In this document: positions 28,091 through 32,083 of the stretch, piece by piece | Numbering within the stretch: position 1 is the stretch's first letter | How the letters are laid out: every line of letters begins with the position of its first letter | Assembly (NCBI GenBank): GCA_021463195.1 | Contig: JAJTXZ010000055.1 | Span: forward strand, 1-32,980 | Direction of reading: 5' to 3' | From: Anaerolineae bacterium | GTDB taxonomy: Bacteria; Chloroflexota; Anaerolineae; UBA4142; SHND01 | Length of the DNA: 32,980 nucleotides | The notes under the pieces: generated by a model | What the model saw: only the letters and a program-made list of their open reading frames with translations | Told to the model about the DNA's origin: nothing | The model's database searches: none | Translations under genes and position numbers: made by a program

Positions 28091-28348
28091 TACAATACCT
28101 CTATGTTGTAATACGCGGGAAGCGGCGAAACAAGGGTTGCGCCCATTTTACACTAAATTGGCGCGAACGCATACGCACGCGGCGCGGGAAAAATTTTCAA
28201 GGCGCGCGTCAATCCCGCGCGCTTGCGCGTTTGCTAGAATTGAAAATAGAACACAAGTTCTACAAATCCTCTTGCGCGTTTCCACGCTCCTTCTCCGCGC
28301 GAATGAAAAGAGTTCCCGCGCCTGCGCTTTCAAAAAAATTTAAGGCAT
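28091..28348. other. Gap between M4 gene and LuxR copy 1
   Basis: This region of 258 bases has ordinary host composition. I see no gene or clear promoter. Part of it (about 28280-28335) resembles the region before LuxR copy 2, so the duplication may extend slightly upstream of the coding parts. Confidence 0.35.
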
Positions 28349-28564
28349 ATGAACAAAGATTCGGCCGCACGCGCGCATCTGTTGACGCCGCGCGAAATCC
28401 AAGTTGCGCGTCTGGTCGCGCAAGCAAAACGCAATCGCGAAATTGCGGCGGAACTCGCACTTGCCGTTTCGACGGTGGAAACGAATCTCAAACACATTTT
28501 TGCGAAATTGCACTTGCGCTCGCGCACCGAATTGGCGCGGTGGGCGCTGGAAAATGAAATTTGA
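28349..28564 (+). CDS. Stand-alone LuxR-type HTH protein, copy 1
   Basis: This is a lone DNA-binding domain of 71 residues. LTPREIQVARLVAQ and NREIAAELALAVSTVET are the LuxR/FixJ HTH signature, and HIFAKLHLRSRTELARWA is the final dimer helix. There is no receiver or ligand domain. A TAAGG sits close to the ATG. The copy at 31770-31988 has about 86% identical residues in the same orientation, and both are followed by the same ~30 bases. A possible role is a small transcription factor or an accessory that heterodimerises with larger LuxR proteins. Confidence 0.85.
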   Translation: MNKDSAARAHLLTPREIQVARLVAQAKRNREIAAELALAVSTVETNLKHIFAKLHLRSRTELARWALENEI

Positions 28565-28585
28565 AATATACCTGATTTCGGGGAT
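28349..28585 (+). repeat. Direct repeat, left copy
   Basis: The coding part and the next 21 bases (to ggggat at 28585) match 31770-32009 at about 88% by eye. The similarity stops sharply after ggggat in both copies. Confidence 0.7.
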
Positions 28586-28666
28586 TCCAAAGTCGGAGGC
28601 TATAGCCATTCATGGTACGATAACAATCCGTCTTTTAATCGTACCGCGAGGGGTGAACCAGAGCGC

Positions 28667-29959
28667 ATGTTCAAAGTGGACCAGCGGAGCAGTGTTCTCG
28701 GAAATATTGATTCTCTTTCTACGAGTGCTTTGCAAAAAGTCTATGATACAGCGCATAATAATCCCGGTGCATGGTGGATCATCGGCGAAGAACCAAACGC
28801 GCTTGCCGGAGAACAGACGATGACTCCCACCGCGTATGCACAGTTCTTCAAGGCGAATCTGGAGCAAATATACGCTGCAGACCCAACTGCCAAAATTGTA
28901 GGAGTCTATTTGGCACACGAGACGCCAGATTTTTCGAACCCTTTCCAATATTACACCGATTTTTACAACGCTTGGCGCGCCAACTATACCTCTTTCTGCC
29001 CAGAGCCGCCATTGGATGCCATCCATGTGAATTATACTCCATGGTTGGAGGACGATAACCGAACCGAGCGTAGACCACGCACTGAGTGGGCTAATCCGAT
29101 GCACACCCTCAATTATGCAAACAAATGGCGCGACTATATCATGGCAGGTAACGCTGGTGGGACACTTGTCAATGAGTTTTTCTCATTGGGCACTTACGAA
29201 AGCTGTGATTACAATCGGTTTGCAGACTGTCCAACACAAGGTCAAGCGGGAAGATACTGGCAGGGCGTTCATGGGGCACTTTCCAACAACCAAGACTATC
29301 CATGGGTAGGATTGGTAATGAATTTTGCAACGTATCCCACTTCATCGGAAATCTTGTGGCATACAAGCGTGTATACCAATTCTGCTGTTACTACCAAGCA
29401 TACTTACTTTCCAGTGTTTGCGAATCTCATTTCGAGAAACGCGGGATTCGAGCAGGGGGATATCAATGGAACAATCGGAGACACGCCGAAACAATGGAAC
29501 CAGTGTACTGCTAGTCCACCTTACTTTGCGACAATCACAGGTGGCGCGGATGGTAGCGGCACAAATGGAACACCGATAATCGAGAGCGACTACGCTGTCA
29601 AGTTTTATACGACTACTACGTATGGATGCGACTTGTGGTCACGTAAGCACTACTTTCGCGGTGACTTGGGCACAAGCATCGAGATTAGTATTGACTATAA
29701 GGTGCAGAGTGGGAGTCTAAACAATTCTGACTTTTATGTCGAATTCTATAATGCGGCGGGACAGAATCTTGGTTCAACCAATTCCTGCGAATGGACCAAT
29801 CAGGATATACAGGATGCGAACTGGCGGCACAAATCCTGTACTTTTCCACTTGGCGCATTTCGGGACGCCCGCTACATGGAGTTCTGGTTGGATGTCTTTC
29901 CAGCAGGCGGAACATCGCACTTTCGTTTTGATAACCCAACGGTTCGTATGGTTCCTTAA
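28667..29959 (+). CDS. 5'-truncated glycosidase-like protein with a C-terminal beta domain
   Basis: The 430 residues from the first ATG lack a signal peptide. The same frame stays open back to the LuxR stop at 28564 and reads like protein (GGYSHSWYDNNPSF), so the real N-terminus is missing and the gene is probably a fragment. Residues about 30-240 resemble TIM-barrel glycosidase-like proteins, with WWIIGEEPN, a YAQFFKANLEQIYAADPTAKI block and VNEFF. Residues about 255-430 form a carbohydrate-binding-type beta domain starting RNAGFEQGD. No exact family is assigned. Its codon use differs from the neighbours (few GCG/CGC codons, many ATT and ACT), which suggests transfer. It ends with a strong terminator. 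Confidence 0.6.
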   Translation: MFKVDQRSSVLGNIDSLSTSALQKVYDTAHNNPGAWWIIGEEPNALAGEQTMTPTAYAQFFKANLEQIYAADPTAKIVGVYLAHETPDFSNPFQYYTDFYNAWRANYTSFCPEPPLDAIHVNYTPWLEDDNRTERRPRTEWANPMHTLNYANKWRDYIMAGNAGGTLVNEFFSLGTYESCDYNRFADCPTQGQAGRYWQGVHGALSNNQDYPWVGLVMNFATYPTSSEILWHTSVYTNSAVTTKHTYFPVFANLISRNAGFEQGDINGTIGDTPKQWNQCTASPPYFATITGGADGSGTNGTPIIESDYAVKFYTTTTYGCDLWSRKHYFRGDLGTSIEISIDYKVQSGSLNNSDFYVEFYNAAGQNLGSTNSCEWTNQDIQDANWRHKSCTFPLGAFRDARYMEFWLDVFPAGGTSHFRFDNPTVRMVP

Positions 29960-29972
29960 CCGCGCATGGTCG

Positions 29973-29998
29973 GGCGTGCCTCATTATTGAGGCACGCC
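29973..29998 (+). terminator. Terminator between convergent accessory genes
   Basis: ggcgtgcctca (29973-29983) pairs exactly with tgaggcacgcc (29988-29998), followed by cttctttt. Confidence 0.7.
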
Positions 29999-30041
29999 GC
30001 TTCTTTTGCCTAACCAATCTGCGTACCAAGAAGCTATCGCG

Positions 30042-31388
30042 TCAGGGTAAGACGGAAAACTCGAGCCAGGGCGAACGCGAGCATCCAATTGCGTTACATG
30101 CTGTGACTTGCCAAGTGTAGGTTTCTCCTCTTTTAAACCCCTTTGCAAGATAGCGCGGCGCAGTAAGATACATTTCTTGCTTGAAAATTTTCTTGCCTTG
30201 CTTGATTTTAAGCTCATACCAACTGGCATTAGCCATAGATTTCCACTTCAGCCAAGTGCGCGTTACTGAGAGCGTAGTGCGATTTTGGGGAGACCGAAGA
30301 ATCGGTACTTGAGGTTTGTTTGACACGCAGGGCAATCCCCCATGCCAGATGTTGGCGCCGACTGCCCAAAGCTCTTGTGAAGAAACTGCGGCGATGGCAT
30401 TCAAATGTGAATCCGCGATTCTTGGCATGTTTATAACGTTCCACGCACTGCCATCCCAATTTTCCATCAAGTGACGCTTAACGAGTTTTCGCGTAAAGCG
30501 CGCCCAGCCAACCGCCCATGCGTCATCGTGCGCAATTGCGGAAACATCATTGAAAGCGCCTAACCAACCGTAAGGATGACTCATTTCCTGCCATTCATTT
30601 CCATTCCAATGTGCAATCATCGTAAACCAGTTCGGTTGTCTCCACCATAATTTCCCGACTGCCCATACATCATCGGATGCTGTACCCGCAACCGAAAGTA
30701 ATTCGGGTCCATTCGGAGGCGTACCGTCAAGACTTGGAACAAAGCTCCAACTTGTGCCGTCCCAATGAATCGTTAGCGCATTATCCAGAACTTGGCCAAC
30801 TGCCCACATATCATTTGTTGTGAGCGCAGTGATTCCGAAAAGGGAACCCTCGGGCGTAGAAATAGGATTCCATGTTGTGCCATCCCAATGAAATGCTAGT
30901 CCTTTCAAAAAAGGGTCATTTCCGACAGCCCAAATATCAGTCGGTGAAAGCGCGGCAATCTTGCTGAGTGCGGCATTGGTTTGTGTAATGATCTTCCATA
31001 CGGTGCCATTCCATTGCAAAATGGAACCATCGGCTGTAACTGCCCAAACATCGTGCGATGCCACAGCTGCAATGTCCTGAATAGTGCCACTGACTGGCTT
31101 GAGGACAATTGACCAAGTATTTCCATTCCAATGCAAAAAGTCTCCTCCGCCGCCGGCCCAGACATCATTGGTAGAAACCGCTTCGACAGCGTACAGCGCA
31201 CCAACATTCGGACCAGGCACATGTGTCCATGTGAGTTGGCATGTTGCATCTGTTGAGCCATACACCATATTGCCAGTTCTCAGCACATCAGAGACGGTGC
31301 TTCCAAATAGCAGAGTTGCGATGAGAAATACCATTGGAATTCTTAAAAGGGTCAGTCTATTTTTTTGCGGTCCTGCACAATTGTTCAT
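30042..31388 (-). CDS. Secreted seven-bladed propeller protein with Fn3-like end
   Basis: The protein has 448 residues. A hydrophobic signal (about 13-32) is followed by seven repeats of a blade motif, each of the form DVWAVG then HWDGTxW (NDVWAG, HDVWAV, TDIWAVG, NDMWAVG, DDVWAVG, DDAWAVG, QELWAVG). This predicts a closed seven-bladed beta-propeller. The last 90 residues form an Fn3-like domain (WYELKIKQG, YTWQVTACN). No catalytic site is seen. It is likely a binding protein on the cell surface. AAGGA lies 8 bases before the ATG. The composition is lower in CGCG than that of the host. It has its own near-consensus promoter. Confidence 0.8.
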   Translation of the reverse strand: MNNCAGPQKNRLTLLRIPMVFLIATLLFGSTVSDVLRTGNMVYGSTDATCQLTWTHVPGPNVGALYAVEAVSTNDVWAGGGGDFLHWNGNTWSIVLKPVSGTIQDIAAVASHDVWAVTADGSILQWNGTVWKIITQTNAALSKIAALSPTDIWAVGNDPFLKGLAFHWDGTTWNPISTPEGSLFGITALTTNDMWAVGQVLDNALTIHWDGTSWSFVPSLDGTPPNGPELLSVAGTASDDVWAVGKLWWRQPNWFTMIAHWNGNEWQEMSHPYGWLGAFNDVSAIAHDDAWAVGWARFTRKLVKRHLMENWDGSAWNVINMPRIADSHLNAIAAVSSQELWAVGANIWHGGLPCVSNKPQVPILRSPQNRTTLSVTRTWLKWKSMANASWYELKIKQGKKIFKQEMYLTAPRYLAKGFKRGETYTWQVTACNAIGCSRSPWLEFSVLP

Positions 31389-31440
31389 CGCTTTTTTCCT
31401 TCTTGAAAATCAATATTCATGCAAGTGTTTCGTTGTTTCC

Positions 31441-31469
31441 ACTATAGGACATGATCCTTGCAGTGTCAA
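31441..31469 (-). promoter_or_regulatory. Near-consensus promoter of the propeller gene
   Basis: On the minus strand TTGACA (31469-31464), exactly 17 bases, then TATAGT (31446-31441). This is the best sigma-70-type promoter in the window. It gives a leader of about 45 bases. Confidence 0.75.
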
Positions 31470-31482
31470 TGCAAAATTTTCT

Positions 31483-31665
31483 TCCACGCGCAAACGCAGA
31501 ACACGCCCTGAAGATTTCGTCGGTAAATTCTTATTCAGCGTTGCGATGGCGGTCGTGACCACGCTCATCACGCTCGCGTGCGCGGGGCAGGCGCATTGGG
31601 AGTATGTGGTGATTGTGTTTTTGGTTGCTTTATTCCTTTTGGTGATTTATCAACACTCCAAGTGA
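31483..31665 (+). pseudogene. Remnant of a small membrane protein
   Basis: An open frame of host composition restarts here and ends at 31665. The readable end has a basic stretch (TRKRRTRPEDF) and two hydrophobic helices, the second ending LLVIYQHSK. The first in-frame ATG is at 31546, inside the first helix, and upstream DNA belongs to the promoter of the opposite gene. It is most likely a gene that lost its 5' end at the right border of the foreign segment. A 39-residue protein from 31546 is possible but less likely. Confidence 0.45.
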
Positions 31666-31769
31666 ATTGTCCGAGCAAAGATGTTTCGGCGCTCCTTCTA
31701 CTTCCTCTGCGCGTCAACTTGAGGCGCCCCTGCGCTCACGCGGATTGAAAAAAATCGGACTCGACAACG

Positions 31770-31988
31770 ATGAACCAAGAGACCTCTGCCGCGCGTGTGC
31801 GCGTCCTTACGCCGCGCGAAATAGAAATCGCGCGTCTGGTCGCGCAAGGTAAACGCAATCGCGAAATTGCGCGCGAACTCGCGCTTGCCGTTTCGACGGT
31901 GGAAACGCATCTCAAGCACATTTTTGCGAAATTACATTTGCGTTCGCGCACTGATTTGGCGCGGTGGGCGCTGGAAAATGAAATTTGA
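31770..31988 (+). CDS. Stand-alone LuxR-type HTH protein, copy 2
   Basis: The 72 residues have the same LuxR/FixJ HTH as copy 1 (LTPREIEIARLVAQG, NREIARELALAVSTVETHL). The differences are mostly conservative, for example Gly for Ala and His for Asn in the recognition region. The start has only a weak ribosome site. Its sequence is closer to the LuxR family consensus (VETHLKHIF), so copy 2 may be the older copy. It sits in host-like DNA. It has no sensor domain, and the gene next to it on the right is on the other strand. Confidence 0.85.
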   Translation: MNQETSAARVRVLTPREIEIARLVAQGKRNREIARELALAVSTVETHLKHIFAKLHLRSRTDLARWALENEI

Positions 31989-32009
31989 AAAATACCTGAT
32001 TTCGGGGAT
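31770..32009 (+). repeat. Direct repeat, right copy
   Basis: This pairs with 28349-28585. The shared tail is gaaatttgaaa.atacctgatttcggggat. Confidence 0.7.
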
Positions 32010-32083
32010 CGCAAGAAGAACAAGTGCGCTAGATTAGATATGGGTTCGCAATCCGGGATTTTTGTAAACGCGAGAGAAAAGAG

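Follow-up and report, generated by a model that had tools for sequence, protein, structure and literature searches.

The two stand-alone LuxR-type genes described here, together with the tail that follows each of them, are probably duplicated control heads of an SOS mutasome operon that was lost from this genome. The source DNA is a 32,980-nt stretch, JAJTXZ010000055.1 (GCA_021463195.1, Anaerolineae bacterium; genome label G000), the whole of which we call the window. We read the LuxR units as leftover heads because the same locus and the mutasome operons of relatives are headed by LuxR genes, and because this genome (98% complete) gave no PolB2 match and no ImuB match anywhere. The features concerned are as follows.

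28249-28260, no strand: LexA-like box TAGAAC-ACAA-GTTCTA with core GAACACAAGTTC; G001, G003 and G005 have orthologous boxes
28278-28590 (about), plus: LuxR unit copy 1 (leader, LuxR gene, tail), from alignment to copy 2
28349-28564, plus: LuxR1, stand-alone LuxR/NarL-type HTH gene, 71 aa, Pfam GerE E 4.7e-16
28565-29959, plus: gly, 5'-truncated secreted-enzyme ORF, open from the LuxR1 stop, first ATG at 28667
28569-28584, no strand: shared tail copy 1, 7-2-7 dyad TACCTGA-TT-TCGGGGA, missing the -10 part of copy 2
29973-29998, no strand: terminator-like hairpin with an 11-bp stem between the convergent genes, with a comparable hairpin at the same place in the sister species
30042-31388, minus: secreted beta-propeller of 448 aa with an Fn3-like domain at its C-terminus; the predicted model has a YCF48-like fold
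31441-31469, minus: propeller promoter TTGACA-17-TATAGT, 11/12 consensus match
31472-31665, plus: remnant of a small membrane gene; the start and roughly the first 17 codons are missing
31683-32014 (about), plus: LuxR unit copy 2, from alignment to copy 1
31770-31988, plus: LuxR2, stand-alone LuxR/NarL-type HTH gene, 72 aa, Pfam GerE E 5e-20
31993-32035, plus: shared tail copy 2, complete, with the dyad at 31993-32008, a GAACAAGTGCGC box and a -10-like TAGATT at 32030-32035

Both genes encode LuxR/NarL HTH proteins, with GerE scores of 58.6 (LuxR1) and 71.3 bits (LuxR2) against a curated cut-off of 23.5, and NarL HTH was the best NCBIfam match of LuxR2 (E 1e-16). The two proteins are 83% identical, and the LuxR part of the two copies shares about 86-87% DNA identity. 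Alignment showed that the duplicated unit exceeds the genes alone and is longer than the earlier sequence-only reading of this DNA had seen, with short indels in the leader. The copies lie in equal orientation at a spacing of about 3.42 kb, and both are host-like in composition at about 40 CGCG/kb. Relative to G001, the insertion that carries copy 2 spans about 31666-32077 in full. The earlier reading was supported as far as a duplication or recombination involving LuxR modules goes.

To place the units in context we compared 20 genomes of the order, six of them in the genus, all of them assemblies with gaps. In G002, the closest by the neighboring M4 peptidase (83%), the locus is empty, with 137 bp from the peptidase to the Q-salvage gene, and in G004 different genes adjoin the peptidase. 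In G001 the LexA-like box is present and the membrane gene is intact; LuxR and the segment are both missing. G003 carries the box followed by a LuxR gene (LuxRa), genes for 175 aa (iRadA) and 135 aa (PPB2), a family B polymerase (PolB2) and the membrane gene. The sister species G005 (Chloroflexota MAG JAKOPZ01) has the G003 order with its mutasome intact, plus an added set, a second LuxR gene (LuxRb), the tail, a full-length gly (688 aa with a signal peptide) and a convergent propeller, that sits between iRadA (175 aa) and PPB2 (135 aa); this order rests on joining contigs C179 and C37 by an exact 201-bp overlap, a length that matches the k-mer size in the name of the contig (JAKOPZ010000045.1, k201). 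The sequence-only reading had proposed to look for a site with one LuxR copy and without the segment; none with exactly a single copy in this arrangement was found among these genomes.

The published order of the bacterial PolB2 operon is iRadA - PPB2 - PolB2, with a PPB2 that starts with MGRT (PMC11791011), and the 175-aa, 135-aa and polymerase genes of the relatives fit both this order and this start (PMC11791011). The polymerase reads IVDSLW in place of the DxD of the active enzyme. All three genes are absent from the window; at the same locus they occur in this order in G003, and in G005 with iRadA split from PPB2 by the added set. What the window does have is a LexA-type box upstream of the operon position, 100 bp 5' of LuxR1 at 28249-28260. 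GAACN4GTTC is the B. subtilis-type LexA operator (PMC4234289), and the box core occurs at a background frequency of 0.010/kb in 293 kb of its own genome.

We then asked how commonly LuxR genes head such operons, counting those with enough upstream sequence. PolB2 and ImuB were searched independently of LuxR, and the ImuAB loci of G009 and G013 were also met via LuxR similarity. In every testable case across the class, the gene immediately 5' of the operon, in the same orientation, encodes a LuxR HTH protein: 12/12 for PolB2 and 6/6 for ImuA-ImuB, against a background density of 6 LuxR matches in 321 kb. Perfect GAACN4GTTC boxes occur in 10/18 heads, with 11 boxes in about 16.6 kb compared with about 0.17 expected from the background of 0.010/kb. 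The variant GAACN4GTGCTA lies between LuxR and iRadA/ImuA in seven heads, and also in the G005 tail, with 0 occurrences in 293 kb of background; its counterpart in copy 2 is GAACAAGTGCGCTAG. Here, LuxR stands behind the box with no iRadA or ImuA next to it, while all 18 of the relatives' operons have LuxR directly upstream. Our limited literature search found no paper tying PolB2 or ImuB to LuxR in Chloroflexota.

Three features count against a mutasome-head origin. LuxR1 and LuxR2 are without the N-terminal membrane segment typical of mutasome LuxR proteins, they are only about 45-50% identical to LuxRa of G003 and G005, and the position of copy 2 differs from the ancestral head's spot. Moreover, some LexA-boxed LuxR genes in the order stand at the head of a tyrosine recombinase gene, or have no mutasome gene behind them, and LuxR1 and LuxR2 therefore need not derive from a mutasome operon. 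In favor of such an origin, when the LuxR relatives of copy 2 were ranked without selection, the nearest in other genomes were LuxRb of G005, then a gene on G011:C229, then the ImuA-ImuB heads of G009 and G013.

Several observations on LexA-boxed genes stand apart from the window. The close LuxR2 relative on G011:C229 (L117, L119) is itself LexA-boxed; its genome gave neither a PolB2 nor an ImuB match, and the gene is possibly another orphaned head. In G008 (L122, L139) and G006 (L123), a LexA-boxed, membrane-anchored LuxR gene is followed about 0.3-0.7 kb on by a tyrosine recombinase (Phage_integrase E 1.8e-26 and 5.3e-32 for L139 and L123, the two tested), and immediately 5' of the recombinase, L122 and L139 carry a second GAACN4GTTC box. 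A perfect TAGAACN4GTTCTA box also lies directly 5' of an mraZ-like gene in this genome (L067:6873, G000:C58), suggesting possible damage control of a division gene cluster.

The sequence-only reading had offered the shared 3' tail as the mark of a cassette site, and we examined the tail with this in mind. The common tail AATACCTGATTTCGGGGAT follows each LuxR copy, at 28566-28585 and 31990-32009, with 19/20 positions identical. A pattern search of the 20 genomes found two sites in this genome, both behind the LuxR copies, one joined site in G005, and none in the remaining 18 genomes. When the dyad pattern was relaxed, this genome yielded two more weak matches, and a reversed control gave an equal number. 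The tail reads TACCTGA-TT-TCRGGGA, a dyad with the 7-2-7 spacing that NarL uses. The distance in sequence from the dyad center to the -10-like hexamer places the center at about -41.5 in copy 2 and about -42.5 in G005, and in both a GAACN4G[T/C]GC box overlaps the -10. By geometry this is the arrangement of a class II LuxR/NarL site, a dyad near -41.5 upstream of a -10; copy 1 is without the -10. In copy 1 the tail breaks off just past the dyad and continues in frame into the interior of gly, which is how its -10 was lost. The tail is thus best read as the putative regulatory region that normally lies 3' of the mutasome LuxR gene, consisting of a 7-2-7 dyad and a LexA-like site over the -10, and not as an attachment site. 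As a cassette mark it does not hold up: it occurs only behind this LuxR type, the promoter-like element that follows it also stands before mutasome genes, and integrase and terminal repeats were not found in the segment. We rejected the attachment-site candidate on the same search of 20 genomes, where the tail was found only behind one LuxR type and not at several independent sites.

Perfect dyads also lie directly 3' of other stand-alone LuxR genes, namely L062 (G000:C24), L026 (G001:C129) and L068 (G000:C61), for example AGTACAAATGTACT and AATAGTGCATGCACTATT. The conserved dyads behind several other stand-alone LuxR genes have no single common motif among them, and they may be pointing to a shared layout of a LuxR gene followed by its operator.

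The repeats could instead be recombination ends, with the enclosed DNA integrated or excisable via direct repeats, as same-orientation copies about 3.42 kb apart that enclose atypical DNA would lead one to expect. We consider this very improbable. The ancestral membrane gene also lies between the copies, so that the repeats bracket more than the insert, and 86-87% identity with indels is poor for homologous recombination. In addition, the tail is nowhere else found as a site, and the repeat that flanks the added set in G005 is a different sequence.

The leftover-head reading also has to accommodate the genes between the units. Relative to its sister-species homologue (L021:502-2565 in G005; 38-41% aa identity), gly is missing about 180 N-terminal aa, signal peptide included, and it has no internal stop. 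Its glycosidase-like label comes from a WWIIGEEPN motif only; there was no Pfam, NCBIfam or meaningful PDB sequence match, and the structure model (pLDDT 43) was too poor to use. The propeller gave a model with pLDDT 74 whose best fold match was YCF48-like (Foldseek E 6e-12, 14% identity), a resemblance in the predicted structure that names a fold and not a function. The sister-species propeller has a TTGACA-17-TATACT match at the same place, read by eye. As the sequence-only reading had described, then, a truncated ORF, here short of ~180 aa, accompanies a secreted propeller with a near-consensus promoter (11/12). It was also correct that host-like DNA resumes with a truncated membrane gene: host homology returns at about 31472, with the first ~17 codons missing. 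This gene had no Pfam or NCBIfam family match. Both truncated genes, gly and the membrane gene, are probably non-functional.

The propeller family is present in 6/6 genomes of the genus and in 0/14 others of the order. Two more family propeller genes adjoin a stand-alone LuxR gene, L132 (G003:C258) and L043 (G005:C336), and the G003 one has a LexA-like box. The Fn3-like C-terminal domain, about 90 aa (propeller residues 353-446), recurs widely: each of the six genus genomes has 15-50 matches to it, on many proteins that otherwise differ. At the contig end (32885-32980), a minus-strand fragment ending in EGVVYLASIRRLLRRLTTAH and a stop resembles a transposase end; it interrupts a PfkB/Q-salvage fusion gene, whose G001 counterpart is complete at 606 aa.

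The segment had been called foreign on its composition. Against a background of about 320 kb sampled from the same genome, gly and the propeller have 5-6 CGCG/kb, compared with 29 +/- 12 for the genome (bottom 2-3%), and a GC content of 0.48-0.49 compared with 0.545. In a codon test that controls for amino-acid content by simulating each gene with its protein kept and host codon frequencies, GC3 gave z = -7.0 for gly and -11.5 for the propeller; the LuxR genes and the membrane fragment were host-like. The segment therefore does differ from the genome average in CGCG, GC and GC3, and the earlier picture of two stand-alone LuxR domains with a common 3' tail framing CGCG-poor DNA was borne out by the GerE matches, the 19/20 tail identity and the CGCG counts. 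Atypical composition stood; foreign origin was weakened by the same order at the same locus in G005, by the genus-wide propeller, and by atypical codon usage in both species and in an unlinked paralogue. In their own host, the G005 gly and propeller have GC3 z values of -8.1 and -9.0, and the unlinked G000:C35 propeller has -8.2. We accordingly set aside foreign origin by composition alone, which the G005 genes and the C35 paralogue weaken.

Low CGCG and GC3 might instead be a property of this class of secreted genes and not a foreign mark, an explanation compatible with a mutasome relic. Besides the like bias in the G005 pair and the C35 propeller, amino-acid content lowers the expected CGCG of gly and the propeller to 9-11/kb, compared with about 11-34/kb for host genes, and explains part of the deficit. 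However, the observed values still fall under the amino-acid-matched expectation (CGCG z -2.0 to -3.5, GC3 z -7 to -11.5), and the propeller on G000:C122 is host-like (GC3 z -2.2). We regard this explanation as possible, if somewhat doubtful. The atypical codon usage is nonetheless real, as a property of a gene class common to genus members.

How the secreted pair came to lie here bears on a further explanation, that LuxR, tail, gly and propeller are a small mobile cassette that entered the locus independently in two species. Presence is patchy (G000 and G005 have the set; G001, G002 and G003 do not), exact positions differ between G000 and G005, codon usage is atypical in both hosts, and the G005 set is flanked by a 178-bp direct repeat, 90% identical, made of the iRadA end and the first four PPB2 codons, MGRT. 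It is because the repeat carries these codons that LuxRb also starts with MGRT. However, we found no integrase or transposase ORF in the segment, no inverted or other terminal repeats at its ends, and no short target duplication. Except for G005, gly had no relatives in the viral contigs, plasmids and other genomes searched, and a viral or plasmid carrier of gly was therefore rejected; propeller matches in viral contigs were weak (best 3e-7). Both sets lie in the same operon behind a LuxR gene, and the 36-41% identity of gly and propeller between G000 and G005 points to a long separation. On balance we judge independent entry of a cassette unlikely. The arrangements are compatible with one old insertion followed by losses as well as with two separate insertions. 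A common origin is favored by the equal gene order, by a bracket that in both cases has the box on its upstream side and the membrane gene on its downstream side, and by the pairing of promoter and terminator; the precise junction between genes in G003 and the repeat in G005 favor a later insertion in G005.

Returning to leftover control heads as the preferred reading, the gene orders, duplication, boxes, truncations and missing PolB2 and ImuB matches were observed; how LexA and LuxR would bind and activate, and in what order and from what cause the events occurred, we infer. In relatives the LexA-like box comes first, then the LuxR-type HTH gene, a promoter in the intergenic gap that holds a second LexA-like site, the genes iRadA - PPB2 - PolB2, and finally the membrane gene. 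LexA would repress the LuxR gene until DNA damage occurs. The LuxR protein would then occupy the dyad located 3' of its own gene and centered at about -41.5, and from there act on the next promoter as a class II activator. In this genome, the box still precedes LuxR1 and the membrane-gene remnant still closes the unit, iRadA, PPB2 and PolB2 are missing, and the convergent secreted-protein pair, a 5'-truncated gly and an intact propeller, fills the gap. The junction between the copy 1 tail and the interior of gly would have cost this copy its -10; gly is therefore probably not secreted and may not be made. The propeller is predicted to be driven by its own sigma-70 promoter. The second copy would be a duplicate placed after the membrane gene, and it seems to retain a promoter with nothing to drive.

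More broadly, SOS mutasome operons of the class (PolB2, ImuAB) might use a two-step switch, with LexA over a LuxR activator of the polymerase genes, and this switch might detach, duplicate and capture unrelated genes, here placing a secreted enzyme and a propeller under DNA-damage control. We offer this wider proposal as speculative, and think it rather unlikely. If the leftover-head reading is right, a LuxR-type protein is interposed as a further layer, below LexA and above the mutasome, in 18/18 operons examined from a bacterial class that is large and for the most part uncultured; a LuxR layer over error-prone DNA synthesis was not described in the papers found in our limited literature search. 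The window would then show what remains after loss of the polymerase genes, with other genes moved in behind the switch, which suggests that a damage-response switch is separable from its repair genes. Two first readings are also corrected: a 3' tail common to two genes does not have to mark a site of recombination, and DNA poor in CGCG does not have to be newly foreign. Locally this would be a lost operon with leftovers; the general pattern, LuxR heading both mutasome types, is directly testable.

Compared with known systems, the window resembles the PolB2 mutasome operon (PMC11791011) in its chromosomal place and LexA-like box, as in the sister species, in LuxR being the first gene in the class, and in a trailing membrane gene that is partly kept. 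It differs in that iRadA, PPB2 and PolB2 are absent, the LuxR copies are without a membrane segment, and secreted-protein genes are present instead; the description of the PolB2 operon in PMC11791011 never mentions LuxR. ImuA-ImuB cassettes are likewise LuxR-headed in the same order of bacteria, and the HTH domains of G009 and G013 are about 60-68% identical to LuxR2, whereas the genus of this genome has no ImuB match. With NarL/FixJ-type LuxR regulators acting at class II sites about -41.5, the units share a NarL-type HTH, a 7-2-7 dyad and its spacing to a -10-like hexamer; unlike these regulators, the LuxR copies here are without a receiver domain, and the predicted site lies behind the regulator's own stop codon. 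Lastly, the YCF48-like beta-propeller is the best fold match of the predicted propeller, although the protein encoded here is 14% identical to it, secreted, and equipped with an Fn3-like C-terminal domain.
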